From positions 1 through 12,575 of the forward strand of contig JAGHCW010000230.1 of the NCBI GenBank assembly GCA_021160245.1: DNA of 12,575 nt, in the 5' to 3' direction. Position 1 is the stretch's first letter, and each line of letters opens with the position of its first letter. Positions 1-12,575 of this stretch are shown here, in pieces. The position numbers and the translations under genes are program-made. This DNA comes from a bacterium. Its GTDB lineage: Bacteria > B130-G9. The notes below the pieces were generated by a model. That model saw only the letters and a program-made list of their open reading frames with translations, did not search any database and was not told the DNA's origin.

Positions 1-1144
1 GGTTCTCATCGTCGCACGGAGATGTCTTTCCGAGAACATCTACGAATTTCGAGCCCGTGTAAAATGGAACATTTAGCGCGAGCTTCTCGTATAGCTCCTC
101 CTGCCACTGCCGACAGATACTCTTGGGTGCAAGCAAGAGAAAGCGGCGCACGAGGCCTGAGACGAGAAGCTGTCTAAGTATCAGCCCGGCCTCAATGGTC
201 TTGCCAAGGCCAACTTCGTCGCAGAGCAGGAACCGCTCAGGGAAGCTATCAACCGCCTTCCTCACAACGTTAATCTGATGCGGCCAGGGCTTGACGGCAG
301 ACGTTGCAATGCCCAGAAGTCCCGAATTCACAAGATGAGGCGCGTCGCGAAGAAACTGAAACATCACCCTCTGTGCGTGTTCTTTCTGCTGGTGCTCTTC
401 GCGATCAGGCTCTTTGACCTGCTCCTTCTCAAATGGATCAGACTTGGGTTGACCCTGGGGTCGATATGACAACATACGTTTTCTTACCGCCTCGGGGATC
501 TCGAACGCTATCCAGTCCCTTTCTTTGCCCTGCCAGAGTCGCTCAAAGCGGCTGACAACGCCCAAGAGATGAGGTCGGTCCTCCTTCCAGGAGCAATAGA
601 CAGAGAACTGCTCGTAGTTATTCCGCCAAGCCTGCTCGCTCTCGTTGATGCTGCCGCTGAAAGCCACCTGGTTGCCTTCTGCATCCGTGAATAGGCCTTC
701 TTTTGGGTGATAATAGTCCCGGCTATCAGGGGAAGGTATCGGCTTCCCGTTCTTTGTCGGGAGAACCACCTTGATCTCAAGCATGGCCTCCGCAACCATC
801 CAAGCCAGCGCCTCAAGCCGCTTCCGCATCAGCATGTCTTCGGGATCGCGGAAGCCCTCGAGGAGATTTCGTTCAACGACCGACGCCAAATCGTGGCCAC
901 GTATTATCGCGCTGACATCGTCCTCCAAAAGCTCTGCTCCCACAAGAAGACGCATACGGCCGCCATTCTGGATGAGTCTCGCAATGCCGGCGGCAGCGAT
1001 GCTCAACGCCGCGCTGCTGAAATATCCCGCGCTTCGATCATAGCGCACTGAACAGGACAGCGCCGGGATGTAAAAGTCATTCAGCCTATCGTCCGACGCG
1101 CCGTAGGATAATTTGAAGTCAGCTGTTGGCAGTATCAGAGCCAT
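1..1144 (-). CDS. PLD-nuclease / SNF2-family helicase fusion, N-terminal part (cut by window edge)
   Basis: The first 381 residues are present; the rest lies beyond base 1. Residues 1-200 look like a phospholipase-D-type nuclease domain. His146 and Lys148 (YYHPKEG) are followed by a GSxN-type motif at 163-167 (SGSIN), the usual HxK...GS.N arrangement. A charged linker rich in Glu, Lys and Gln (about 230-260) leads to the start of a SNF2 helicase domain: PWPHQ at 286-290, the Walker A motif DEVGLGKT at 309-316 with Lys315, then motif Ia LLLAPKS near 336-342. Walker B and the second RecA domain are outside the window. The ATG at 1144 is preceded in frame by a stop at 1163-1165; a GTG at 1147 is the only alternative start. 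The gene lies 66 bp after the 185-aa gene, probably in the same transcript. In this family the protein is the predicted DNA-translocating and cleaving component of DUF499/DUF1156 defence loci. The domain calls are strong, the role is inferred. Confidence 0.92.
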   Translation of the reverse strand, partial: MALILPTADFKLSYGASDDRLNDFYIPALSCSVRYDRSAGYFSSAALSIAAAGIARLIQNGGRMRLLVGAELLEDDVSAIIRGHDLASVVERNLLEGFRDPEDMLMRKRLEALAWMVAEAMLEIKVVLPTKNGKPIPSPDSRDYYHPKEGLFTDAEGNQVAFSGSINESEQAWRNNYEQFSVYCSWKEDRPHLLGVVSRFERLWQGKERDWIAFEIPEAVRKRMLSYRPQGQPKSDPFEKEQVKEPDREEHQQKEHAQRVMFQFLRDAPHLVNSGLLGIATSAVKPWPHQINVVRKAVDSFPERFLLCDEVGLGKTIEAGLILRQLLVSGLVRRFLLLAPKSICRQWQEELYEKLALNVPFYTGSKFVDVLGKTSPCDDEN

Positions 1145-1210
1145 CACCGTCTGTCGAGAGACTCAAGTGCCCTTGGCGCTTTAGAATTGGTGATAAGGTC
1201 GAGGGTATGG

Positions 1211-1768
1211 TCAGGCACCAGAAAGCCCATTACGGAATTTCTGTAGGTTATCTAGTCGTTGCCTTCTCTCGGCCAGCGCCTTCTTGCATTCTCCCTCAAT
1301 CGCCGCATTGTGCTGTTCGATTTCTTCTTTCATGGAGCTCAAGTTGTGCTCAAGGTCCTTACATGCGCTCGCGTAGGCGGCCTTGATATCTTCAGCATTG
1401 GACCCTTCTGAAGAATAGACTATGCTGCCTCTGTCCAATTCCATGGCGACATCCACGTGAGGATGCGGGCAGTACTCTAGCAGCGCTGCTTCCCCTTCTA
1501 TTGGTTGGATTTCATATGTCACGCGGTACTGTATCAATCGCCGTGGCCCTTCGGGCCCAAGGTCGTTGATCTTAGGCTCTACACTGTCAAGTGCTGGGAC
1601 TCTGGGTGGAGTGAATCTGAATTTACTTAATAGTCCCGAACAGATTTCAGAATCCGCCTTCTTATCCAGATCGCTTTTCTTCAATAGCTCCACTTCCTTT
1701 TTGATGCGTTCAGACGTGAAGGTCAGGTACTTGTCGAGTGGCTTCTGGCGATTGAATAGCGTTCTCAT
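1211..1768 (-). CDS. Hypothetical 185-aa protein with charged helical C-terminus
   Basis: I do not recognise this family. The N-terminus is basic and helical (about residues 1-40, with ERIKKEVELLKKSDLDKK). A central part, about 50-120, looks mixed or beta-rich (TPPRVPAL, QYRVTYEIQPIEG, ALLEYCPHPHVDVAMELD). The last 60 residues form a strongly charged helix with heptad-like spacing, probably a coiled coil (EHNLSSMKEEIEQHN, KKALAERRQRLDNLQ). There is no signal peptide or membrane segment. The start is secure: AAGGAG lies just upstream of the ATG at 1768. The gene lies 83 bp after the methylase stop and 66 bp before the helicase start. That placement between two core components suggests a structural or adaptor subunit of the same complex, which is inference from position only. 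There are no visible catalytic motifs. Confidence 0.8.
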   Translation of the reverse strand: MRTLFNRQKPLDKYLTFTSERIKKEVELLKKSDLDKKADSEICSGLLSKFRFTPPRVPALDSVEPKINDLGPEGPRRLIQYRVTYEIQPIEGEAALLEYCPHPHVDVAMELDRGSIVYSSEGSNAEDIKAAYASACKDLEHNLSSMKEEIEQHNAAIEGECKKALAERRQRLDNLQKFRNGLSGA

Positions 1769-1851
1769 CTTATCTCCTTATGGTTGTGTGTGATAATGTC
1801 GAGCAATATCGAGTTCGTGACCATGTTTCACATCCAAAGGGTACTATATCA

Positions 1852-4839
1852 CTAGACCGTTCTCTTGAGCCCCAATTCCTTCTGCTCTATCGGCGGAGGC
1901 GCATCCTTCGGGACCTCGAGGTCGGGGAAGAAGTTGAGGCGCAGGTCGTCCAAGAGCTTCGCCTCGGGCCTCAGGAACTCGCCCGCTTTGCGTGTGCGGG
2001 GGATCGCGTTGACCATCGCCTGGAGGCACGCCTGGAATGTCGAGTCATTCAAGAGGCCAGTTTCTGACAGGAAGCGACCACACGCGCTTGAGCCATCCTC
2101 CTCAAAAACCATCATCGCTGTGTGGATAGCGTCCAAAAGGCACTCGAATGTCCCAAGATCGGGGTCAACAACACCCTTCTTGCGACGAAGCTTCGGAAGC
2201 TGCAGTATCACGTTACTCGCCTTCTTCGCTATCACACGCTTCGTCTTAACAAGGTCAGCCTCGATGTCCAAATTTAGCGCAAGCGCGAGCATCCGCGCCT
2301 CGTCCGCCGGGAACTCCTGCGCCCTAAAAGCGTCCCACGCCATAAGATACCAATCGGTTATGGTGTCGAACTCGACCTTCCGCCCGAGCAGAAGCCCCTG
2401 CCGCCGCAAGTTCATAACCTCTTCGCGGGCGATGTTCAAAGCAACGTCCGGCGAGAGCTCTATCGGCTTGCCAGTCTGCTCGTCCATGCTGCTCGAATAA
2501 ACCGGCCATCGCTCACTCAATATCGCAAGCACCGGCCCAAACGTGCTGATATAAAGATCAACGCCTGTAAGCCCCAATTCGTGGAACTCCCGCGCCTTCT
2601 CCCGCGCCGTCCGCCTCACCCGCTCCCGAATGTCATCCCACCAGACGATTTCGGATTTCGGATTGGGGATTTCGGATTGGCCATTAGAATCCGAAACTTG
2701 GGATTCTCCGGCGCCTGACGCAGAGAAGGGTGGCTTCCGAGTTCCACCTGCAATCCCAAATCCTAAATCCGCAATCCGCAATCCGACTTGTCTCTTCCGG
2801 CAGACCAATAGTATCGTGCTGGCCGCTGCGTTCTTCTTTGCCTGATGGAGACTGTGTTCGCTCTCGGTTCGGACGGGCCAGGATGCCTTGATAACGAAAC
2901 CGGCCTCAATCAGCGCCCGACCCAGCGAGTTCCACGCGTCAACCCGCTTATGGGTGAACATGACGGTCAGAACGCCATCTGGATGCAGCACGCGGTTCAT
3001 CTCTGCAAAGCACGCGGCCATCTTCCGCAGGTAATCATCTTGAGCGAGTTCCCTCTTCTTTCTCCCCACGTCTTTGAACCGTGCAACGTTCGCGACCGCC
3101 TCGTCGTCCTTGTTCGTCAGCTCGTCTCGAAATAGCTCGGGATAAACATCCCCCAGCGTCCGCTTCATCCAGACATAAAAAAAGTCCGAACACTCGGCAT
3201 ACATGACATTGGCCTCGTATGGCGGGTCAACGCAGACCAAATGGAACGGCCTGTCCGTCAAAATGGCTGTTGCCGACATACGGGAGATCACGGGCTTGGA
3301 GCTCGCACTCAATTCTCCCTCCAACAAGTTCTGCCCCGACTGCTGGGTCAGCTGGGCCATGCCGTTGTAGGCACCAACGACTTGTTCAAGACACCACGGA
3401 AAAAGATTGCGGGATGCGTCGAACTCCCCATGGCTCCATTTGAAACTGAAGTCGTGCCGGTCGAATGTGCTTCTCATGCCTCTTGAGCCATCCCATCTAG
3501 CCATGACTGAGTTATACATACAGGCCTTGTCAAACATGAAGGCCAAATACGTCGCTATCGCGTCCGCCTTCTCCTTCGGCTCGCCCGCTCGGACCTCGGC
3601 CATGACCTCGTGGAACGCCTCAAGGAATGTGCAGAGCGACAACAGCTGACGAGGCGAGAACATGTCGCACCACCTCTTCATGCCGTATCTCAATGGCTCA
3701 GAAGTTTTGTTTCCGACCGGTATGGCGTCATTGGGCACAAGTCCTTTCGCCTCCCATTCGGGTAGTTTCCTTCCCAGTTCCTCTTCAGCGGCTTTCACGG
3801 CATCGAGGTCGGCCTGCGTTGGCGCCCTAAACTGAAAGCCGCCTGCCTTCTTGATCCCGATCGCGTAAAGCTGCTGGCCCATCCTACCCGCCTGCGCCTC
3901 GCGTTTGATGTAATCGCCGGGGATCGCATCGCCATTCCACGGAGAGACAGCAACGCCGCGCTTGATTGTCCCCTTGTCCGGATCCGAGGCGATTGCTTCC
4001 TTACCTGAGACGATTTCGAACCGGCATTCTGGTTCATCCGGCTCGCATATCAGCTTGGCCGCCAGAGGCTTATCGCCTTTCGCCAGCCACCAATTAGGTG
4101 ACAACGGCACAGGCTTCCCCGTTTCGGGACAGGCAACGGTTCTTGCCCATATATACGCGTGTATTTTCTCCCCGAGCTCAATTAGATAGAACCGGGATAA
4201 CCTGTCTTGAACTATGCTAGCGATCTTTCCGCCGTAATACACGATAGCGTCTTTCAGGCTGATACCAAATCTGGCAGGATAATCCACCGTCGCTTTCAGA
4301 ATGACGGATGCGACTGGGTTGAGCTCATTTGCGTGTGTCCGAAGCCCATGTCGCAGGGCCTCGAATGGGATAGAACCGCCGCCAGCCATCGGATCGATCA
4401 TGGCGATGTCCTCGGAACCCCACGTTACGCTCAGCATCCTACGCATAAGCGCAAGATCGTCAGTCGATGGACTAACGGAGAAGGCTCGCTTATGTTCGAA
4501 AGGAGATTTCTTTAACCTGATGCCCTTATCTTTGGCCCAGAGCATCAATTGCTGGGCCGCGACGGGGTCGCCGAGTATTCCGATGAAGCGTTTGAACCAC
4601 TCGTGGTATGCGTTTTCGGTGGGGAACTTGCTGATGAGGTCGTTGGGCCAGTTGGCCGACCACTGAGGCAGGAGGCTTGCAAGGACCGCGGCGCGTGAAA
4701 CGACAAGCGGCCGCCTCGCCCACCACACGTGGAGCCGATTCGGCGGCGGATGCTGCCCCGTGCTGTTCTCCCTCCGGCTTTCGACGGAGAGTTCCTTAAT
4801 CGGCAGCCATTTTTCGATTAGAACGGGCGGGTGTGGCAT
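1852..4839 (-). CDS. DUF1156-family DNA adenine methylase (COG1743 type)
   Basis: This 995-aa protein is predicted to methylate adenine in DNA using S-adenosylmethionine, marking host DNA as self. The N-terminus carries the DUF1156 signature (IEKWLPI, then NRLHVWWARRPL at 34-45). Motif I, which binds the cofactor, is DPMAGGGS at 149-156, followed by ELNPVAS at 172-178. The catalytic motif IV is DPPY at 538-541, followed by a YVWMKR stretch. Motif I precedes motif IV with a large insertion between them, as in this family. The Zn-ribbon region (about 230-280) keeps only scattered cysteines (237, 265, 272) and no CxxC, so it may be degenerate. Residues 684-731 are encoded by a 7-bp repeat insertion that stays in frame between the catalytic part and the C-terminal domain. 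GGAGG lies 8 nt before the ATG, which supports this start. The family assignment is secure; the target site cannot be read. Confidence 0.95.
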   Translation of the reverse strand: MPHPPVLIEKWLPIKELSVESRRENSTGQHPPPNRLHVWWARRPLVVSRAAVLASLLPQWSANWPNDLISKFPTENAYHEWFKRFIGILGDPVAAQQLMLWAKDKGIRLKKSPFEHKRAFSVSPSTDDLALMRRMLSVTWGSEDIAMIDPMAGGGSIPFEALRHGLRTHANELNPVASVILKATVDYPARFGISLKDAIVYYGGKIASIVQDRLSRFYLIELGEKIHAYIWARTVACPETGKPVPLSPNWWLAKGDKPLAAKLICEPDEPECRFEIVSGKEAIASDPDKGTIKRGVAVSPWNGDAIPGDYIKREAQAGRMGQQLYAIGIKKAGGFQFRAPTQADLDAVKAAEEELGRKLPEWEAKGLVPNDAIPVGNKTSEPLRYGMKRWCDMFSPRQLLSLCTFLEAFHEVMAEVRAGEPKEKADAIATYLAFMFDKACMYNSVMARWDGSRGMRSTFDRHDFSFKWSHGEFDASRNLFPWCLEQVVGAYNGMAQLTQQSGQNLLEGELSASSKPVISRMSATAILTDRPFHLVCVDPPYEANVMYAECSDFFYVWMKRTLGDVYPELFRDELTNKDDEAVANVARFKDVGRKKRELAQDDYLRKMAACFAEMNRVLHPDGVLTVMFTHKRVDAWNSLGRALIEAGFVIKASWPVRTESEHSLHQAKKNAAASTILLVCRKRQVGLRIADLGFGIAGGTRKPPFSASGAGESQVSDSNGQSEIPNPKSEIVWWDDIRERVRRTAREKAREFHELGLTGVDLYISTFGPVLAILSERWPVYSSSMDEQTGKPIELSPDVALNIAREEVMNLRRQGLLLGRKVEFDTITDWYLMAWDAFRAQEFPADEARMLALALNLDIEADLVKTKRVIAKKASNVILQLPKLRRKKGVVDPDLGTFECLLDAIHTAMMVFEEDGSSACGRFLSETGLLNDSTFQACLQAMVNAIPRTRKAGEFLRPEAKLLDDLRLNFFPDLEVPKDAPPPIEQKELGLKRTV
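2647..2785. repeat. Inverted pair of 7-bp tandem repeat arrays inside the methylase gene
   Basis: On the + strand, five heptamers run without a gap from 2647 to 2681 (GATTTCG, GATTTCG, GATTGGG, GATTTCG, GATTGGC). Five more in the opposite sense run from 2751 to 2785 (CAATCCC, AAATCCT, AAATCCG, CAATCCG, CAATCCG). About 69 bp separate the arrays, and in that space GAATCC and GGATTC occur once each. The shared unit is CGGATTK and its complement, so the two arms can pair as an imperfect stem. In the methylase frame they encode LRIADLGFGI (687-696) and SEIPNPKSEI (722-731). Because 7 is not divisible by 3, the peptide pattern repeats every 21 bp. I remember such arrays as dispersed repeats in some environmental bacteria, mostly between genes; that is recollection, not a search result. 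Confidence 0.85.
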
Positions 4840-4944
4840 GAGCGTGGCCTCCGTATGAATTGGGCGGAGATTAGCGGCCGCTTAAAAGACGCCTACGGCC
4901 AAATTGTTACGCGGCACCTCAGCTAAGGCTCAGCGCCCGATTGT
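4840..4944 (-). promoter_or_regulatory. 105-bp leader of the methylase gene with strong ribosome binding site
   Basis: This gap lies between the 52-aa gene and the methylase. On the minus strand GGAGG (complement of 4848-4852) sits 8 nt before the ATG, a strong Shine-Dalgarno sequence. The remainder holds short GC-rich pairing possibilities (GGCCG and CGGCC, about 15 nt apart) but no T-run, so it is not a convincing terminator. I see no clear -35/-10 pair. Read-through from upstream genes is the simplest reading. Confidence 0.45.
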
Positions 4945-5103
4945 CTATTTGAACAGTTTCCTGGTGAACTTAAATATGCCCTTGCCGGCCAGCTTCCCGA
5001 GTCCAAGTCTGACGCCCCTGGCAGCTATCTTCTTGGGGCTGCCGGAAGAGACAGCTTTGAATGTGTTTGACCATTTGAGGGCTTTGTAGATTCCTCGTTT
5101 CAT
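4945..5103 (-). CDS. Very basic 52-aa small protein
   Basis: This short gene runs from ATG at 5103 to TAG at 4945-4947. It is supported by an excellent Shine-Dalgarno sequence: AAGGAG (complement of 5110-5115) six bases before the ATG. The product begins MKRGIYKALKWSNTFKAV, continues through a Ser-Gly-rich turn (SSGSPKKI), and ends in a Gly/Lys/Arg-rich helix (GLGKLAGKGIFKFTRKLFK). Lysine and arginine far outnumber acidic residues, which are absent, so it should bind nucleic acid, membrane or an acidic partner. The layout (aromatic helix, SGSPK turn, basic GR/GK-rich tail) resembles small basic proteins I remember from phages and mobile elements, but I cannot name a family. It lies 55 bp after the 61-aa gene, behind a hairpin. 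No function is assigned. Confidence 0.7.
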   Translation of the reverse strand: MKRGIYKALKWSNTFKAVSSGSPKKIAARGVRLGLGKLAGKGIFKFTRKLFK

Positions 5104-5115
5104 GTGCTTCTCCTT

Positions 5116-5148
5116 TTGGCCTGTTCCAATGGGACATTGTCAGGCCAA
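5116..5148 (-). promoter_or_regulatory. Two-part RNA hairpin touching the ribosome binding site of the 52-aa gene
   Basis: TTGGCCTG (5116-5123) is perfectly complementary to CAGGCCAA (5141-5148), an 8-bp outer stem. Inside it CAATG (5127-5131) pairs with CATTG (5135-5139) around a 3-nt loop. The internal loop has 3 nt on one side and 1 on the other. On the transcribed (minus) strand the hairpin ends directly at AAGGAG, the Shine-Dalgarno of the 52-aa gene. It is followed by AAAAGG rather than a T-run, so it is not an intrinsic terminator. Likely roles are translational control of the small basic protein, or an mRNA processing or stability element. Base pairing is seen directly; function is inferred. 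Confidence 0.7.
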
Positions 5149-5158
5149 TCATCGATTC

Positions 5159-5344
5159 TTAGTCCACCACGAATTGCCAGGCTTTCTCGACGGATTCCCT
5201 CTTTGCCTGGTCGAATTTCTTGAAGTCCTCCTCGACCGCCTTCTGGAGTCGCTCTCCAATGGCTTCGATCTTTTCAGCGGAGGCGAACCTCTTTGTGTCG
5301 TCCTTGCCGCCTATCCCATCGAGGATAAGCTCTTCCTTCTTCAT
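5159..5344 (-). CDS. 61-aa charged helical small protein
   Basis: The preferred start is the ATG at 5344-5342, which overlaps the stop of the 500-aa gene as ATGA. AAGGAG lies 5 nt upstream. A GTG at 5350 is in frame but too close to that ribosome binding site. The product (MKKEELILDGIGG...) has a short N-terminal acidic segment, then one long amphipathic, charged helix (SAEKIEAIGERLQKAVEEDFKKFDQAKRES) ending WQFVVD. It has no cysteine and no membrane segment. I do not recognise a family. Translational coupling to the peptidase-like protein suggests a partner, inhibitor or chaperone for it, on position alone. Confidence 0.72.
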   Translation of the reverse strand: MKKEELILDGIGGKDDTKRFASAEKIEAIGERLQKAVEEDFKKFDQAKRESVEKAWQFVVD

Positions 5345-6843
5345 TGGCACTCCTTCAGATTGTTTCGATAAAGTTCGTAGGGTCGCGGTTCGTCGAGCTT
5401 CTTCATAATAACAAACCTGTCCTTGGCCGCCGTCATTGCGTCCCTATTATTAACAATTATGTAATCAGGATAGTGCACGACAATAAACGGGAATTGATCG
5501 TATTGGGAGGCAGTGGCGTCCCATATCAGCTCCCCCAAAATCTGTCCTTGGGGGTACAGGGCAGTGGTCGAGAGCTCGCAAATCCATATAAACTTTGGCA
5601 TGGGAAGCTGGGCGTATAGTCTCTCTATGCTGTGCGGCAGCGGGGTCGCCTTTCTGACCTTTTTATACGATTTTGATGATGTCAGAAATATCCTTGCGAT
5701 TAGGTCTTGGCCCGATAAGGAGGGAGAAAGAGCATCAATGCCTATATCTCTATCGAGCAGGATTTCCTGGGCGCTCCTTTCGACGTGTTCTGCAGCCAGG
5801 TAGATTTTCTCATACATCGGAACGACGAATACCGCAACGTCGACGGCTCCGTATTCTGAGCGGTGCTTACGAGAGCCGTCTCTTGATAGAGACATGACTT
5901 GATATGGCATGTGGTTGTCGTTGTTCACGACAAAGCCCTTTAGGTAGCCGTAGCTGCTTCTGAATATGGGATTCGCCGGTGGCGGCTGAATCTGATAATC
6001 CGAGATGTGACCGAAGGTGACGAGGGCGTGAGGCATGCACGGAACTCCAAATTTGGTGGCAAGACCGCACACAACCGGGAGACCTGATTCGACGTAGTAA
6101 TAGAGAAGCCTGTCGAATAGCCCCGGCTGTGTGAACTTATCACGAGAGTATATTTCGGGGTAGAAGCCGAAATCGGAGAAGATCTGCGATATCTGGCCGA
6201 CGTTCAGTCCGCGAGATGGAATAAGTCGCCCGGTTGAAATATCAGTCGTCATTTGAGTTATCTGAAATGGATATGTCTCTCTGTAATTGGGATACCTCTC
6301 CGAGTAATATCTGAAGATCATCCAACACGCGGCATGGGCGCATATAGTCACGTCGGTGTCTTGGCTGATATGGGGGAATCCCTTAACGGATAGCTCCGTC
6401 CCTAACAGGTGGGCCTTAAACTCCGTTAAGCACATGGTGCCAGGCAATCCCTCAATCTTAGCGGGATCGAGAATTGTCCGACCGATGCTAGTGACTCTTG
6501 TTGGTCTGACCACACAGTAGCCGATATAATCCTGTTCGAAGTTCTCCAGCTCCCAGATATCCTCAGCTTTGAGAGCCGTTCCGAAAAAGTGCAAGCGGAT
6601 CGTTCTTGAAGGATATTCGGCGAACTTCTTTGAATAGAAACCGGAGTATGTGTCGCGATAGTCCTTGTCAATGTATTCGCGTTCGACTATGACCGATTTG
6701 GCCGATGAGGCTAGGAGCTCTTTGAGCTTCACCCAGTCTGCCGGAACCAGGAAAGGGCTACATAGCCGCAGTAGTTCCGCCCAATCTTCGGGCTTGCCAA
6801 AGACGACCACCGGGTATAGGGATGTTTCGTTGAGAACTGTCAC
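5341..6843 (-). CDS. Probable papain-fold (C39-like) cysteine peptidase, 500 aa
   Basis: The central part, about residues 155-315, has the order of a papain-fold, C39-like peptidase. Gln161 is a possible oxyanion residue, followed by DVTICAHAACW with candidate nucleophile Cys168. A helix follows (WMIFRYYSERY). Then come GLPVVCGLA, candidate His272 in PHALVTFGH, and Asp309 in FVVNNDN, where C39-like enzymes carry their acidic residue. The N-terminal 150 residues hold an unrecognised domain with the phrase GYCVVRPTRVTSIGRT (108-123). The C-terminal 180 residues are also unassigned. There is no signal peptide, ABC-transporter domain or membrane segment, so it is not a bacteriocin exporter; it should act in the cytoplasm. 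The start is GTG at 6843, with GGAGAG upstream and an in-frame stop at 6859-6861; no other nearby start exists. It follows the HIRAN gene by 69 bp. Cleavage of a host or phage protein during defence is inferred. Confidence 0.72.
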   Translation of the reverse strand: MTVLNETSLYPVVVFGKPEDWAELLRLCSPFLVPADWVKLKELLASSAKSVIVEREYIDKDYRDTYSGFYSKKFAEYPSRTIRLHFFGTALKAEDIWELENFEQDYIGYCVVRPTRVTSIGRTILDPAKIEGLPGTMCLTEFKAHLLGTELSVKGFPHISQDTDVTICAHAACWMIFRYYSERYPNYRETYPFQITQMTTDISTGRLIPSRGLNVGQISQIFSDFGFYPEIYSRDKFTQPGLFDRLLYYYVESGLPVVCGLATKFGVPCMPHALVTFGHISDYQIQPPPANPIFRSSYGYLKGFVVNNDNHMPYQVMSLSRDGSRKHRSEYGAVDVAVFVVPMYEKIYLAAEHVERSAQEILLDRDIGIDALSPSLSGQDLIARIFLTSSKSYKKVRKATPLPHSIERLYAQLPMPKFIWICELSTTALYPQGQILGELIWDATASQYDQFPFIVVHYPDYIIVNNRDAMTAAKDRFVIMKKLDEPRPYELYRNNLKECQ

Positions 6844-6912
6844 AGGTTGTCTCTCCGGTCACTTACACAGCAGATTGAGAGTTTCTTCCTGTGCTTCGGC
6901 ACGTGATCGTCC

Positions 6913-7656
6913 TCAGTCATCGGCATGCACTGGCTGAAACTCTGGACCTGACATCGGCTCCCAATCATCTGGCCACGGCGCAGAGGCCTTGCACAGAATG
7001 CGATACTGAAGCGGAGCAGGAGGCTCATTGAACTTCTCCACGACCACTTTGAGAGCATCCCGGTGCCTGTCTAGTAATTCGTTCAGATCATCGCGTAGGT
7101 ACCTAGGGACATATCCAATGCCGCAGAGGTCTTCTGTCCGGAGGAGAAGGGCATCGGGATCCCTATCATTCTGGGGATCTCTGCAAACCCAAAGCCTCTC
7201 TCCCGTCTTAACCTCTTTGTGCCGCCCGCATTTCCCAGCCCTAACATGGCTGAGTCCTCTCAGGAAGAAATGCACACTATAGCGATTATCCTCTGCCTTC
7301 TCAGGCTTGGGGAAAACCTCCAGTTGATCCGTGGCTCGTCTTCCGGCTGAACGAGCGAGAACTGCAATTGGATCGTCCTTTATGTCCTCGGAGAGATTCA
7401 ATTGTCTCAAGAAGTCGGGCCATTCCGGACGCTCGCCATTCAAAATCCTATTTTGGAACAGCGGAAATAGAGCGGGTGATTCAAAAACCTCATTGATGTT
7501 CGGAAAGGCCAAGAGGGGCGAGAACCCCTTTTCCTGTGCCCTTCTGGCGCCTTTGACATATCGGAACCAGTAACTGCCTCTGGCGCGACCGAGTGAACCG
7601 ATCACGAACCATTCGCGGCTCTTAGGGTCTTGCCAGCCAAGGAATAAGGTCGTCAT
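6913..7656 (-). CDS. HipA N-subdomain-like + HIRAN domain protein
   Basis: This 247-aa protein has two recognisable parts. Residues 1-118 resemble the N-terminal subdomain of HipA-type proteins: FLGWQDPKSREWFVIGSL at the start, FSPLLAFPNINEVFES, LFPLFQNRIL, then DPIAVLARSAGRRATDQLEVFP. Residues 126-210 match a HIRAN domain: YSVHFFLRG, then GERLWVCRDPQNDRDPDALLL and GIGYVPRYLRDDL. HIRAN domains in eukaryotic HLTF/Rad5 bind 3' single-stranded DNA ends; bacterial ones are often linked to defence or repair genes. The start codon overlaps the stop of the kinase gene as ATGA, so the two proteins are translationally coupled. The arrangement recalls HipBST systems, where HipS (an N-subdomain-only protein) neutralises the separate kinase HipT. 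Here the HipS-like part would carry a DNA-sensing HIRAN tail. HIRAN is a confident call; the HipS analogy is inference. Confidence 0.85.
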   Translation of the reverse strand: MTTLFLGWQDPKSREWFVIGSLGRARGSYWFRYVKGARRAQEKGFSPLLAFPNINEVFESPALFPLFQNRILNGERPEWPDFLRQLNLSEDIKDDPIAVLARSAGRRATDQLEVFPKPEKAEDNRYSVHFFLRGLSHVRAGKCGRHKEVKTGERLWVCRDPQNDRDPDALLLRTEDLCGIGYVPRYLRDDLNELLDRHRDALKVVVEKFNEPPAPLQYRILCKASAPWPDDWEPMSGPEFQPVHADD

Positions 7657-8573
7657 TTTGATATGTCACTTTCTATTTGTCCCAAAATCCGCATGGAGCA
7701 ATGGACGAATTGAAGAGCGAAATCCACTGACGCCTGAGATACCCAACCATCCGGAAACATGTCGAATATAGCACTGACCTCTTGCATATCAAGTGCAAGA
7801 ACTCTTCGAAGCCAGAATTTGAAGGCGTCCGCATCGACTCTTGACGCCCTATGAACAAGCTCTATCGGAGATAGGCCCCTCCGATCGCCCTCGCACCAGT
7901 AGAATGGGCTCCGGCCTTTGAGCACGTAACTTGAGATAGCATTGGGTCTGTTGAGCTTATCAAGACGTTTCTCGTCCTGAAGTTCTCTGCCAAGCGATGA
8001 TGCGTGATCGTAGCTGGGAGGCAAGCGCAGGTTGCCGCTTGGCTGGTTCCTGCCGATAACTCCCCAGTTCTCGTGGTGTCTGTCCGTGTTGCCTACTAGA
8101 GCATCGAGTACGAGATAGCCGCAGAATACAAAGTCCCCATTGGCGCTATCTGGCAGGTGCCGCGCGCATTCAGGGGACAGCACTGATAGATACCTCAGGA
8201 CCTGGATCACTACTTGATAGGTGTGTTGGCTCTGACCGAAAGTCCTGCCGGCATCGTAATCCCTGATAATGGCGGGCAGGAGCTCATTTCCATGGGCGTA
8301 GAACTCGCAAGTTCTGTCGAGAAACTCGGGCGAGAGGACTGCGCGTCGCCCGCCGCATTCAGCAAGATTGTATTCAGCGTGAGGGACTCCCAACAGCTCT
8401 GCGATTTCTGCAACTGCTTTCTCGGCCCATGTCTCCCCTGTATTCGGTCTAGGGAACTTGAGCAAACAGCGGCCTAGTGGCTCTACATCAATCCAGAACT
8501 TCTCCTTGCCACCCATCGCTTCCTCCCAGAGATCCTGCGAGGTGTCAATGGGATAGACTTCGTATTTCACCAT
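7653..8573 (-). CDS. HipA/HipT-like serine/threonine protein kinase
   Basis: This 306-aa protein has the HipA C-terminal kinase core without the usual HipA N-terminal subdomains. Lys39 in CLLKFPRPNTGE is the likely ATP-binding lysine. The EKAVAEIAELLGVP helix (51-64) matches the helix-C region. The catalytic loop GNTDRHHENW (161-170) supplies Asp164 and Asn169, and Asp189 in PSYDHASSLG is the metal-binding (DFG-equivalent) residue. All key residues appear present, so the kinase should be active. HipA and HipT kinases phosphorylate aminoacyl-tRNA synthetases and arrest growth; the target here is unknown. The ATG at 8573 has GAGG 8 nt upstream. The gene lies 57 bp after the DUF7680-like gene and overlaps the HIRAN gene by 4 bp. 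No HipB-like DNA-binding antitoxin is encoded in the window. The kinase family is secure; use as a defence effector is inferred. Confidence 0.88.
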   Translation of the reverse strand: MVKYEVYPIDTSQDLWEEAMGGKEKFWIDVEPLGRCLLKFPRPNTGETWAEKAVAEIAELLGVPHAEYNLAECGGRRAVLSPEFLDRTCEFYAHGNELLPAIIRDYDAGRTFGQSQHTYQVVIQVLRYLSVLSPECARHLPDSANGDFVFCGYLVLDALVGNTDRHHENWGVIGRNQPSGNLRLPPSYDHASSLGRELQDEKRLDKLNRPNAISSYVLKGRSPFYWCEGDRRGLSPIELVHRASRVDADAFKFWLRRVLALDMQEVSAIFDMFPDGWVSQASVDFALQFVHCSMRILGQIESDISK

Positions 8574-8630
8574 TTGAGAGGCCTCAGATTCAGGAGAAAG
8601 GGCGAGTTGCGGTGCCTGTGAAGGCGATGC

Positions 8631-9065
8631 CTACTCACTAGCCTGAAGTATCCTTAGCGCCTTCTGCGAGCGCCTTTTGCTCTCATCAGCGGTGCAGCGA
8701 CTAAACCAATAGTATGCCTCTTCAACACCCATGTTGCGGACCGCGTTAGAGATGTGCTCAATGCGCGTGGTCTTGCGGAGTGGCTTCACTGCCAAGAATA
8801 GCAATCCAAGGCGCACTCCCGCTTCCTCGTCGAGGGCAAAAGGCGTCTTTCGGCTTCGCTTCAGGCTTGATGGTTTGTATCCGCTATCTCTCAATGTGGA
8901 TACCAGAGGCTCGAGAGTTAGACTAAGTGGGGTGCCCCAGACTCGCACGAGCCTCTTCAGCTTCTTTCTCTTGCGGTCTGGTTCCTTTTGGCGCTGAAAG
9001 AGCTCAATTCCATATTCACTCTCGTTGACGGGAAAGACTCTCAGCTCAAACGGTGATTGACTCAT
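8631..9065 (-). CDS. Small DUF7680-like protein coupled to the DUF499 ATPase
   Basis: This 144-aa protein starts at an ATG overlapping the stop of the ATPase gene (ATGA), so the two are translated together. It begins FELRVFPVNESEYGIELFQ, has a very basic stretch (DRKRKKLKRLVR, about 30-41), and then a conserved-looking core: SGYKPSSLKRSRKTPFALDE, VRLGLLFLAVKPLRK, and NMGVEEAYYWFSRC at 111-124. From memory this resembles small proteins annotated DUF7680 that sit beside DUF499 ATPases in defence loci; I could not confirm this by search. It has no catalytic motif and no membrane segment. It is probably a partner or adaptor of the ATPase. It occupies the place where some related loci encode a DUF3780 protein, which I do not see here. 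Confidence 0.75.
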   Translation of the reverse strand: MSQSPFELRVFPVNESEYGIELFQRQKEPDRKRKKLKRLVRVWGTPLSLTLEPLVSTLRDSGYKPSSLKRSRKTPFALDEEAGVRLGLLFLAVKPLRKTTRIEHISNAVRNMGVEEAYYWFSRCTADESKRRSQKALRILQASE

Positions 9066-12000
9066 TTGCCAGATCCCTTTTCGACGTCTTCTGGTTCCGC
9101 CTCAACCTTGATCTTGCCCAGCTGTAAGTTCTCAAAGACCGTTGTTATGGTCTCGAACTGGTCGCCCGCAACCTCAAGACCTTCGTCAAACACGGCCGCT
9201 ACAGATGTCTTGACCTCAACGTTGGACGCCTCCCTACCAAACGCATCAGCAATGTCCTTGAAGCGGCGGTACCGGTCCCAGGACAGACTGCTCTTGACTT
9301 CAAAGGCCTCTTTCTGGTCGCCGACGATAAACTCCGCTGTCATCCTGTGGTTCATCCAGTATTTACCTCTCCCCATCTGAGGGATTGCGAGGCCTAAACG
9401 CCTTGTATCATCGAGTGCTTGCCTCCCGAAACTGTCGATCTTGACGGTAAGACACCGGAGCCTGATGACCTTGTTGTCGTGGCATCGGTCGATAATTGCC
9501 CTGAACGCTTGCCTTGGTGGTCCCTCACCGCTGATTTCCCGAGTGTCCTCGATACCTTCATCGCCACAAGTGCAGGGATCGCTGCCGCAGAGCGGGCAGA
9601 CCTCGGGTCCCACTTTCTCTCCGTCGATATGGATATCCCGCCGCTGCGCCTCGTCAAGCGTCAGAAGAACCGCATCGTCGCTGAGTTCTGGGCTGAGTGG
9701 GCGAGAGCGCCTTCCATACCCGATCTCCTTCTTTGCGTCGTAGTATATCCAGGTGCCGTTGCGGACGCCCTCTCGTATCGTCTTCTTCAGCTGGTTTGGA
9801 TCGAGCACCATCTTGAGGCGTATCTTCGTAGCAAAAGACTTCCGTATGTCTTCTGTGGTCATGGTCTGTGCCTCAGCATCCCAAGCCCGTGCCTTGACGA
9901 AGGCCGGATTCAAGGGCTTGTCGTCAGCAGTAAGGACTTTCCCCTCGTTGACAAGCATCTGAAGGACGACCGGCGTCTGGTCCCTTGGGGCCTTGCCCTG
10001 GTCCTGAGGTGGCAGCTTAACTCTGTTGAGGCGCCCGGCGCGTTGAGATGCGTCTCCGCTTGGGAAATAAAGAAAACTGTAGGCTCGTGTGATAGCTATC
10101 AGAAGGTCGAGATGGGCTTCCGCCTCTTTCTTACGCAAGCGTTTCTTGAGCTCATCGCTGAACTCGGCTAGGCGGTCGGTATCAGTCAGAATGCGCTCGA
10201 TCGCGAGAAGTCGCTGTGAACGTTGGGTCATGCGCTCCACATGGCCTTCGTCCGCAACCAGGAATAGAACGTTATTCTTATATGTCCTGTTCTTGTGGAG
10301 AGAGCCGGCACTCTCGAAGAACTGCACAACCAAGTCCGGTGGGACCTCCTTCGTCGCCTCGGTCGTTGCGGCGGCGTAGTGTATAATCGCGAGCTTCGGT
10401 GACTTGGCGTTGTCATCAATATACGAGGCGTCATCAGGGAAATACACTGGCTCCAGAGCGCCCTTTCTCCACACTTTTCGAATCCTCTGGTCAAGCTCAT
10501 CCTTCGCCCTTATCAATCCGACGATGCTCATCTCATCAGCTATCAACTTATTGATTGAAGGTTCAGTCTTGAAACGATAACGCCTGCCGTCATATTCCAA
10601 GAACCAGCAAGTATCGACCAACTGATTCACCGCCTTCATGATGAGGCCGGGATCATCTCCGGGTTGAATGACACCCGCCCAGAGGTCTTCGGGAGCAACA
10701 CCCGAGGCGGCCCCCATGTTCAAGCTGTGAAGAAGCACTGTTGCCGCTATCCGGTATGCGTATCTTGGTTTCCCCGACTCGACAAACTTGGTGTCAATCT
10801 CATCAGCATGACAGCGGGCGCCTTTTTTCGGATTTGCGATATCGGCCTCAATGACCGATCTGTAACCTGGTCGCTCGAGGCGGCTTGTTAGATCGTTCAC
10901 TATGGAGGTAACGGAGAGGTCAACGTGAAATGGATGGATCATGAAGACATTACGGTCGCGAGTGTCCTGCCTCCATAGCTGCCTGACCACCATCGCCAGC
11001 AACCTCAGAGCTCCGCGAGTCTTTTGAAAGTTCTGGATTGTCGCTGTCTTACGACTTAGAGTATTCAAGAGCTCCGGGTGAAATGGGTATGAGTTGATCA
11101 TCTCCTCAACGTATTCGGACCTGGCAACACGTTCGGGGAGGTCCTCACTTCGCTGGATCAAATGTTTAGCGAAGGCTGCATACGTGGTTGCGACTTTTCG
11201 ACCAGCATTATGATCGATACGTTTGAATAACCTGTGAGAGACTATGGCAGCAATCTCGACTTCGCTGGTCGGGGTCAGCACATGCTCCTGGCGTGAAGTT
11301 ATCCTCCGAGCTTCTGCAATTGCCTGAGTGAATGAATCTGTCTCTTTGGAAAACGCGTCTGCGCTAGTTGCCGGGCTAAGAACGACAACCACTCGCTCTC
11401 GACTGGAAGCAAACTCAAGCAAGGACATAAGGAAGCCAACTGTCTGCTCAGCAAGAGATGTTTCGCCGACTTGACCTTTGGCGCCCCGGAGATACCTGGC
11501 GAACTCGTCCAGCATAATGAGGGCTGGCTTCTTGCCGACTATCTTGTCCCAGATTTGGGAGCCCGGCGCGATGCGTTTCTCGTCGGAGGCTCTTAAGACC
11601 TCATACGCATCTTTGCCGCCCAGTTGATAGGCAACCTCACCCCAGAGCGTGTGTGTGGTCAGGCCCTCGTGCTCAAATCCGTTTTCTGGGTCCATATCTG
11701 AGCCTACAACCGCCGCGACCTGCTCTATGCGCTCAGAAGGAATCAAGCATGGGTCAATGAATTTCCTAGTGAGCTCAGCATTAACGTGGTTCTTGGTTAG
11801 GTGATAAAGACCAATCAAATTGTGCGTCTTACCACCACCAAAGGACGTCTCCAGGCGTATGATGGGGCTTGCATTAGGTCTCGCGCCGCTTAGCCTCCCG
11901 ATAGCCTCCTGAAGCAGCTCTTTCAAGCCTGATGTGGGATATGTATTCTCGAAATACTGGGTGGCGTCGCCGTAAACATCCTCGGCCTTGCCAGAGACAA

Positions 12001-12091
12001 CGTCGGCTAGCCTGGCCGCGAAGATCTCGTCCTTGAGCTCTCCCCGTAGTACCTCATCACGGGGTTCGCAACAGTCAAATACTGTGTGCAT
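9062..12091 (-). CDS. DUF499-family AAA-like ATPase of the defence core (COG1483 type)
   Basis: This is a 1009-aa P-loop ATPase when begun at the ATG at 12091. The open frame extends to 12196, but the conserved family start appears to be HTVFDCCEPRDEVLRGELKD, and AGAGGG lies 8 nt before this ATG, so the extra 35 residues are probably not translated. Numbering from 12091, Walker A is SFGGGKTH with Lys88, and Walker B is ALIMLDEFARY with Asp195 and Glu196. A VVVVLSPATS strand follows near 235-244, in the usual place of sensor 1. Near the C-terminus a zinc-knuckle-like cluster occurs, CPLCG then CTC (Cys832, 835, 840, 842). The tail is acidic (EAEPEDVEKGSGK). The protein probably uses ATP to move on DNA or to switch complex state together with the DUF1156 methylase and the PLD helicase. 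It overlaps the DUF7680-like gene by 4 bp. It is the first gene of the visible operon. Confidence 0.93.
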   Translation of the reverse strand: MHTVFDCCEPRDEVLRGELKDEIFAARLADVVSGKAEDVYGDATQYFENTYPTSGLKELLQEAIGRLSGARPNASPIIRLETSFGGGKTHNLIGLYHLTKNHVNAELTRKFIDPCLIPSERIEQVAAVVGSDMDPENGFEHEGLTTHTLWGEVAYQLGGKDAYEVLRASDEKRIAPGSQIWDKIVGKKPALIMLDEFARYLRGAKGQVGETSLAEQTVGFLMSLLEFASSRERVVVVLSPATSADAFSKETDSFTQAIAEARRITSRQEHVLTPTSEVEIAAIVSHRLFKRIDHNAGRKVATTYAAFAKHLIQRSEDLPERVARSEYVEEMINSYPFHPELLNTLSRKTATIQNFQKTRGALRLLAMVVRQLWRQDTRDRNVFMIHPFHVDLSVTSIVNDLTSRLERPGYRSVIEADIANPKKGARCHADEIDTKFVESGKPRYAYRIAATVLLHSLNMGAASGVAPEDLWAGVIQPGDDPGLIMKAVNQLVDTCWFLEYDGRRYRFKTEPSINKLIADEMSIVGLIRAKDELDQRIRKVWRKGALEPVYFPDDASYIDDNAKSPKLAIIHYAAATTEATKEVPPDLVVQFFESAGSLHKNRTYKNNVLFLVADEGHVERMTQRSQRLLAIERILTDTDRLAEFSDELKKRLRKKEAEAHLDLLIAITRAYSFLYFPSGDASQRAGRLNRVKLPPQDQGKAPRDQTPVVLQMLVNEGKVLTADDKPLNPAFVKARAWDAEAQTMTTEDIRKSFATKIRLKMVLDPNQLKKTIREGVRNGTWIYYDAKKEIGYGRRSRPLSPELSDDAVLLTLDEAQRRDIHIDGEKVGPEVCPLCGSDPCTCGDEGIEDTREISGEGPPRQAFRAIIDRCHDNKVIRLRCLTVKIDSFGRQALDDTRRLGLAIPQMGRGKYWMNHRMTAEFIVGDQKEAFEVKSSLSWDRYRRFKDIADAFGREASNVEVKTSVAAVFDEGLEVAGDQFETITTVFENLQLGKIKVEAEPEDVEKGSGK

Positions 12092-12575
12092 GGAAATGGC
12101 CCTCTCGTCTCCTTCAATCCTGCTGCATTGCACTGAGAAAAATGTCCAACAGTGGACGAGTTCAGTATAGGAGTAATGAGATTCAGGTAAGAGCATCGTA
12201 TTGATGCACTAGAGATTCTTCAAGCATTTCCTGCTGGTTTGAGTCCGGCCATGTGATTAAGCTGGTGGTTACTATTTCCTTGAAAAGAGGAAATCCTATC
12301 CTATTGGGGAAAGCTGCCGGTTGAAATCTGAAGGACTGGCCAGAAGTTGCGAGTAGACCCTCTGAGCGATGCACGCCATCCATGGAATGAATGACCAGGT
12401 CCGACTCGAACAGGCATATTGCCCACACGCGACGCATACGCATGTTCGTCTTCTTGTGAAATTGACACTACCCCGATGACGGCAAGCCCGCAGAACACCG
12501 TCAGAAGATGCTATGGGCTATTGCGGGTGATGGGCGAGGTTCGTTCGGACAATGAAAAGCCATGATTGTGTCATA
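12092..12575. other. Upstream region of the operon, no supported gene
   Basis: These 484 bp contain no gene I can support. A minus-strand frame at 12183-12443 (86 aa, beginning MRMRRVWAICLF) is open but has only a weak ribosome binding site and no recognisable family. An alternative frame at 12301-12498 overlaps it. Short frames running off the right edge on either strand are too brief to judge; for instance a plus-strand ATG at 12552 lacks a ribosome binding site at the right distance. The half next to the ATPase gene should carry the operon promoter. Confidence 0.5.
12144..12210 (-). promoter_or_regulatory. Weak candidate promoter and two short palindromes before the ATPase gene
   Basis: On the minus strand a -10-like TATACT lies at 12169-12164. 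No good -35 box is found at 16-18 bp spacing; the nearest candidates (CTTACC, TCTTAC) are poor. A perfect palindrome GTCCA-N4-TGGAC covers 12144-12157, where transcription would begin. A second, GCATC-N5-GATGC at 12193-12207, gains two further flanking pairs across one mismatch. These could bind a repressor or be chance. The resulting leader would be about 65 nt before the ATG at 12091. Confidence 0.25.

Follow-up and report, generated by a model that had tools for sequence, protein, structure and literature searches.

A DUF7680-type BREX-related operon with two candidate effector modules at a recurrent internal cargo site

The window, meaning the whole stretch of DNA analysed here, is a complete contig of 12,575 bp (G000:C39) from a fragmented source genome, and the source phylum was represented by four genomes. 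It carries ten genes, all on the minus strand and spanning positions 1-12091:

9062-12091, minus: DUF499 AAA+ ATPase (HmaC/BrxC-like), core gene 1 (Pfam, PADLOC)
8631-9065, minus: DUF7680 protein, core gene 2 (Pfam; 4-bp overlap with the DUF499 gene)
7653-8573, minus: HipI-type HipA-like kinase, hipIN module (HipA_C, PDC-M03A)
6913-7656, minus: HipN-type HIRAN protein, putative antitoxin or sensor, hipIN module (HIRAN, PDC-M03B)
5341-6843, minus: papain-like cysteine peptidase, 500 aa (invariant catalytic residues)
5159-5344, minus: 61-aa charged peptidase partner (homologues; 4-bp overlap with the peptidase gene)
4945-5103, minus: 52-aa cationic ORF, orphan (ribosome-binding-like site)
1852-4839, minus: DUF1156 N6-adenine methylase with a DPPY motif, core gene 3 (DUF1156, HmaB)
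1211-1768, minus: 185-aa protein in the second cargo slot (resembles the N-terminal half of PDC-S54)
2-1147, minus: PLD (HKD-type)-SNF2 helicase, N-terminal 382 aa, core gene 4 (PbeA, SNF2; truncated by the contig end)

All reading frames in the window are intact apart from that of the helicase, which runs off the contig end, and since the genes are full-length and belong to recognised families, chance is not an issue. The gene coordinates bear out the ten same-strand genes and three 4-bp overlaps of the initial annotation. These overlaps (DUF499/DUF7680, kinase/HIRAN and peptidase/61-aa gene) fall exactly within modules, whereas the overlapping pairs are spaced 57-105 bp apart, so that the gene layout itself reveals the modules.

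Judged from its sequence, the core of the locus belongs with the BREX-related (BR) restriction operons of the Hma/Pbe-like kind and has DUF7680 as a fourth core gene. The ATPase matches Pfam DUF499 (1.7e-37) and PADLOC HmaC (1e-101), has the Walker A motif SFGGGKTH and reaches 1.2e-82 with NCBIfam DUF499_antiphage, which is under the cut-off of that model. Its ORF opens at 12196; we set the start at 12091, since alignment to the HmaC and DUF499 models sets in at about residue 36. The second protein matches Pfam DUF7680 (4.9e-37), and DUF7680 comes almost directly after DUF499 in cyanobacteria, Rhodococcus and haloarchaea as well. The methylase scores 5.8e-21 with DUF1156, 2e-83 with HmaB and, again under the model cut-off, 1e-65 with NCBIfam DUF1156_antiphage. 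The helicase is closer to PbeA (1e-69, model positions 9-358) than to HmaA (2e-20); its N-terminus is PLD-type (PLDc_2 at 0.0014, under the Pfam cut-off) and is followed by the helicase motif (SNF2, 9.7e-8). The fragment aligns with a cyanobacterial helicase of 1053 aa, over residues 5-405 of the latter. Because the window is the whole contig, this gene was cut by the assembly, and no sequence elsewhere in the source genome was identified as its C-terminal half. Matches on another contig were considered as the remainder and rejected: they are 35% identical and include an overlapping part, and were taken to represent another helicase. With the helicase incomplete, an intact system at this locus is not proven. 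The gene order DUF499-DUF7680-(cargo)-DUF1156-(cargo)-helicase recurs on plasmids of cyanobacteria, Rhodococcus and haloarchaea and in the genomes of other bacteria. The initial annotation had described a three-part core of ATPase, methylase and PLD-SNF2 helicase; these families were named correctly, as were the HipA-like and HIRAN genes, but the DUF7680 protein had gone unrecognised as a core component.

The genes in the middle of the operon are two modules plus an orphan ORF. The first module consists of the kinase (HipA_C, 1.7e-8; PADLOC PDC-M03A, 3e-84) and the HIRAN protein (HIRAN, 8e-10; PDC-M03B, 4e-83), and corresponds to hipIN, which has been described as a HipI kinase together with HipN, a putative antitoxin combining a HipS-like part with HIRAN (PMC8262856). 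As in that description, and in the equivalent PADLOC candidate system PDC-M03A/B, the kinase gene precedes the HIRAN gene with a 4-bp overlap; the window pair differs from described hipIN in its position inside a restriction-like operon. The full-length match to PDC-M03B, taken together with PMC8262856, suggests that the window protein also has the HipS-like N-terminal domain. The kinase residues K39, E51, D164-R-H..N169 and D189 are invariant among eight homologues. Elsewhere hipIN adjoins an Hma-type operon in Nostoc, lies between hsdS and hsdM of a Type I restriction-modification (RM) system in Rhodococcus and stands behind hsdM-hsdS in genome G200, in whose phylum no further case of the HIRAN protein was found. 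The pair also occurs alone, amid metabolic genes (L037-L039) and on actinobacterial plasmids. A kinase-HIRAN pair of this kind has been reported adjoining diDNase genes on mobile elements (PMC11706625), and the literature searched held no paper naming PDC-M03. We therefore regard hipIN as a known, portable pair with a predicted role in defence or as a toxin-antitoxin (TA) system.

Several further occurrences were seen on mobile DNA. The pair adjoins the integrase of a Vibrio provirus of the Vinavirales (L061, 10953-12646) and of a C. difficile phage (L062, 4092-5681), and in a P2-like phage it appears as a fusion between a replication gene and the portal gene (L063, 5107-6666). On an Oscillatoria plasmid an intact HIRAN gene stands behind an apparently broken kinase gene (L011, 11000-12738). 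Viral contigs searched with six short patterns per protein yielded relatives of neither the HIRAN protein nor the peptidase discussed below, and none of the latter were found in phage records.

The second module combines the 500-aa peptidase with its 61-aa partner. The peptidase matches no family of Pfam, PADLOC, NCBIfam or PHROGs, and a search of solved structures with its alignment gave chance matches only. In eight homologues Q161, C168, H272 and D309 are invariant; they form a papain-type Gln-Cys-His-Asp set, with Q161 in the oxyanion role, which supports the earlier naming of this gene as a probable cysteine peptidase. An AlphaFold model built from a five-row alignment has a mean pLDDT of 54.7, a low confidence that limited its use to secondary structure and a faint indication of the fold. 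It places a helix at 164-183 and strands at 273-279 and 301-305, with the cysteine near the helix start and the histidine and aspartate at the strands; residues of about 164-347 give weak alignments (Z 4-5) to the folds of phytochelatin synthase, C39 peptidases, staphopain and calpain (Foldseek E of at least 0.5). The peptidase thus shares its catalytic set with papain- and C39-type enzymes and differs from them by additional N- and C-terminal parts, the gene for a partner of about 60 aa and the missing match in the four family libraries.

The partner is a regular companion. At 18 of 21 loci the peptidase has a neighbouring ORF of 50-80 aa, compared with 20 of 118 other large genes at the same loci (p 1.4e-9), and a homologue of the window partner follows the peptidase in genome G001 (39%, 1e-14). 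Among close relatives the partner lies downstream of the peptidase, overlapping it or a few bases away; in distant ones it is often upstream. Seven partner relatives have a C-terminal K...E.A....[LV]D motif in common. A further partner copy, 61% identical to the partner at L003, was observed without a close peptidase and divergent to a distant one (L042, 8781-8969, minus strand), and is possibly an orphan antitoxin.

Like hipIN, the peptidase pair recurs beside restriction systems. On a Desulfobulbaceae contig (L003) it sits directly behind the C-terminus of a BR-type PLD helicase (PADLOC PLD_Helicase, 3.6e-134), in Desulfuromonadales (L001) it precedes an hsdM-hsdS-fic-hsdR operon by about 100 bp, and in G488 (L041) it is near the Type I restriction gene hsdR. 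The Type I RM operon of L001 has its Fic protein gene between hsdS and hsdR (14562-15641). Distant homologues adjoin multiubiquitin/ThiF-E1 operons (L015, L017, L085), for several others no recognised defence neighbour was found, and at L084 and L087 the pair lies amid housekeeping genes. At a separate locus (L083, 7993-11563), a retron-type reverse transcriptase (RT_III-A, 1.8e-162) and a 212-aa protein without assignment are followed by the peptidase and a 65-aa partner, a pair that is possibly a retron effector.

The peptidase and its small partner appear to be undescribed in the libraries searched and are the new part of the finding. We tentatively read them, at slightly less than even confidence, as a two-gene immune effector, either a protease toxin with its inhibitor or a protease triggered by its partner, that would have been recruited repeatedly to restriction-type operons of the BR and Type I RM kinds and, within this same reading, to the neighbourhood of retron and ubiquitin-like operons, where it would serve as a plug-in defence of last resort. 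For this module the main rival is small-protein processing: rather than being a toxin, the peptidase would act on the 61-aa protein as a substrate, in peptide signalling or maturation, or would be a protease of ubiquitin-like conjugation. The conserved C-terminal end of the partner, the multiubiquitin/ThiF-E1 neighbours of distant homologues and the C39 peptidases among the weak fold matches, which cut leader peptides, would all suit such a role. Yet the surroundings show no recognised gene for secretion, an ABC transporter or maturation, and the restriction operons in which the closest relatives reside have no ubiquitin-like genes that were recognised; we hold this alternative to be unlikely.

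Two small genes remain. The 52-aa ORF is strongly cationic and has a good ribosome-binding-like site, AAAAGGAG, ahead of its ATG; no convincing homologue was found, plasmids included, and the ORF is possibly real. The 185-aa protein matches the PADLOC candidate PDC-S54 (1.8e-16, profile positions 6-198 of 410), and plasmids held no convincing homologue of it.

The initial annotation had grouped the five middle genes into one cassette forming a signalling or abortive arm of the operon. A single integrated arm wired to the core would agree with the arrangement on one strand, entirely between core genes and with short gaps, and with the lack of terminator-like sites on the minus (coding) strand between the ten genes. 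However, all five were together only here: the other hipIN loci examined are without the peptidase, and the HIRAN protein of this kind is absent from the genomes with the closest peptidases (G001, G004-G006). The gaps of 57-105 bp between the modules, as opposed to the overlaps within them, point the same way. The five genes as one conserved unit are therefore rejected, and a functionally wired arm of kinase, HIRAN protein, peptidase and small proteins is in our view quite improbable. What stands of the proposal is that modules lie inside a predicted defence core and recur in or beside restriction operons. The kinase-HIRAN pair was already known.

Comparison of DUF7680-type operons showed where such cargo is placed. 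Of 18 operons, 11 have at least 400 bp between DUF7680 and DUF1156; 10 of 17 have as much separating DUF1156 from the helicase, as opposed to 1 of 17 for DUF499 and DUF7680. Gaps were read from gene coordinates, and as some loci are related, the p value of this slot comparison (9e-4) is a guide only. Internal cargo loading is thus a habit of these operons. In the window, the five middle genes occupy the first slot and the PDC-S54-like protein the second. The first slot is empty in Rhodococcus and haloarchaea, and some haloarchaea use the second. Elsewhere the slots hold largely TA and defence genes: PIN, DUF559, HigBA, XisHI and VapC in one cyanobacterial plasmid operon; PIN, a DUF5615 pair, DarTG-like genes and MazF in a second; and in further operons a multiubiquitin/ThiF operon with ImmA, MazF (MazEF), or an S8 peptidase with an ATPase.

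Joint occurrence of the five genes only once had been taken in advance as the mark of a chance insertion. The cassette does fail as a unit on this count, yet 'chance insertion' is a poor description, since 11 of 18 operons carry cargo in this slot and both modules are associated with restriction systems. An insertion into a decaying operon, seen through a fragmentary metagenome assembly, might account for the helicase that ends at the contig edge with its remainder not found and for the small number of relatives (four genomes in the phylum). With intact frames, conserved catalytic residues and a slot so commonly used, we consider it highly improbable.

Additional slot contents were observed in single operons. 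In one bacterial BR operon (L099, 7021-13445), whose DUF499 gene is apparently split, the slot between DUF7680 and DUF1156 contains NsnAB, a PDC-M38AB pair, two proteins without assignment and a metallo-beta-lactamase protein; the last three of these cargo genes seem common to L100, where the slot also contains a transposase. Operons of multiubiquitin, E2-like, ThiF and DUF6527 genes are found within, or immediately after, DUF7680-BR operons on plasmids of cyanobacteria (L047, 12430-14549; L049, 14650-16767; L050, 19936-22501), some of them with an HTH-ImmA/IrrE pair; the L047 case is deduced from gene sizes and order.

The other main rival, besides processing by the peptidase, concerns the purpose of the cargo. 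The inserted pairs could be TA-like addiction modules that keep a mobile restriction operon stable without contributing to defence. HigBA, MazEF and VapC do occupy the same slots in cyanobacterial plasmids, and both hipIN and the peptidase pair share the overlapping two-gene layout of TA pairs. On the other hand, hipIN beside phage integrases and apparently fused within a P2-like phage is in positions typical of accessory defence cargo, and L099 carries defence modules (NsnAB, PDC-M38AB) instead of addiction pairs. We regard pure addiction as rather unlikely, if a little less so than the processing alternative for the peptidase.

Our preferred explanation, which we consider probable, is that the locus is a DUF7680-type BR operon loaded with two independent, portable two-gene effector modules at the preferred slot between DUF7680 and DUF1156, where they would serve as back-up outputs. 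It draws directly on the gene content, the module boundaries, the recurrence beside restriction systems, the cargo habit of the slot and the intact catalytic residues. In the mechanism that we infer, which includes toxicity, inhibition, triggers, co-regulation and a defence role of the modules, the core would mark self DNA through adenine methylation, the DUF499 ATPase would scan, and the PLD-SNF2 helicase would attack unmarked DNA. The HIRAN partner may keep the hipIN kinase silent until phage DNA ends or single strands release it, upon which the kinase would stop translation. Similarly, the 61-aa partner could hold the peptidase, or the peptidase could act through it, and a disturbed partner would lead the peptidase to cut host or phage proteins. 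Both modules would come into play as back-up outputs upon failure of the core, making the built-in growth-arrest output proposed earlier a hypothetical consequence. Joint action of the two modules is unsupported, as no other locus has both together, and the literature searched contained no toxin or defence assay of either. Further points against our explanation are the hipIN and peptidase pairs seen amid metabolic or housekeeping genes and the incomplete helicase.

These observations suggest that back-up effectors dock at fixed internal sites of DUF499-DUF7680-DUF1156-helicase operons, which would allow new immune modules to be found by reading between the core genes. The peptidase and its tiny partner represent an unstudied candidate module, widely spread over bacteria and with a clear catalytic residue. 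Since hipIN and the peptidase pair both recur beside other antivirus systems, they may be swappable back-up weapons.

DUF499-centred BR systems have been described previously, with DUF3780 as the mark of type 2 and a standalone DUF3780 gene in 98% of taxa (PMC12839542). The window operon resembles type-2 BR (Hma or DUF499-DUF1156-PLD-helicase in PADLOC/NCBIfam) in combining a DUF499 ATPase, a DUF1156 adenine methylase and a PLD-SNF2 helicase, and differs by its kinase-HIRAN and peptidase cargo and by DUF7680 in place of DUF3780, for which the window proteins gave no match; we therefore name it a DUF7680-type BR operon and do not count it as a formal type-2 member. In Hma (type-1 BR) the helicase is HmaA-type, carrying a C-terminal nuclease and lacking an N-terminal HKD domain, whereas that of the window is PLD-type at its N-terminus and has its C-terminus off the contig. 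PbeABCD, the restriction half of archaeal phosphorothioate defence (PMC6459918), contains the closest counterpart of the window helicase, PbeA, and the DUF499-DUF7680 pair is found in haloarchaea as well; in contrast to Dnd-Pbe, the window has a DUF1156 methylase and, on its short 12.6-kb contig, no dndCDEA modification genes. HipA and HIRAN are not mentioned in the main text of PMC12839542, and no paper in the literature searched treats DUF499 together with HipA, whereas one covers both DUF499 and DUF1156. Accessory nuclease effectors within BR core loci have been reported (PMC12839542); the core and hipIN of the window are known, and their combination and the habit of internal cargo loading extend that report.
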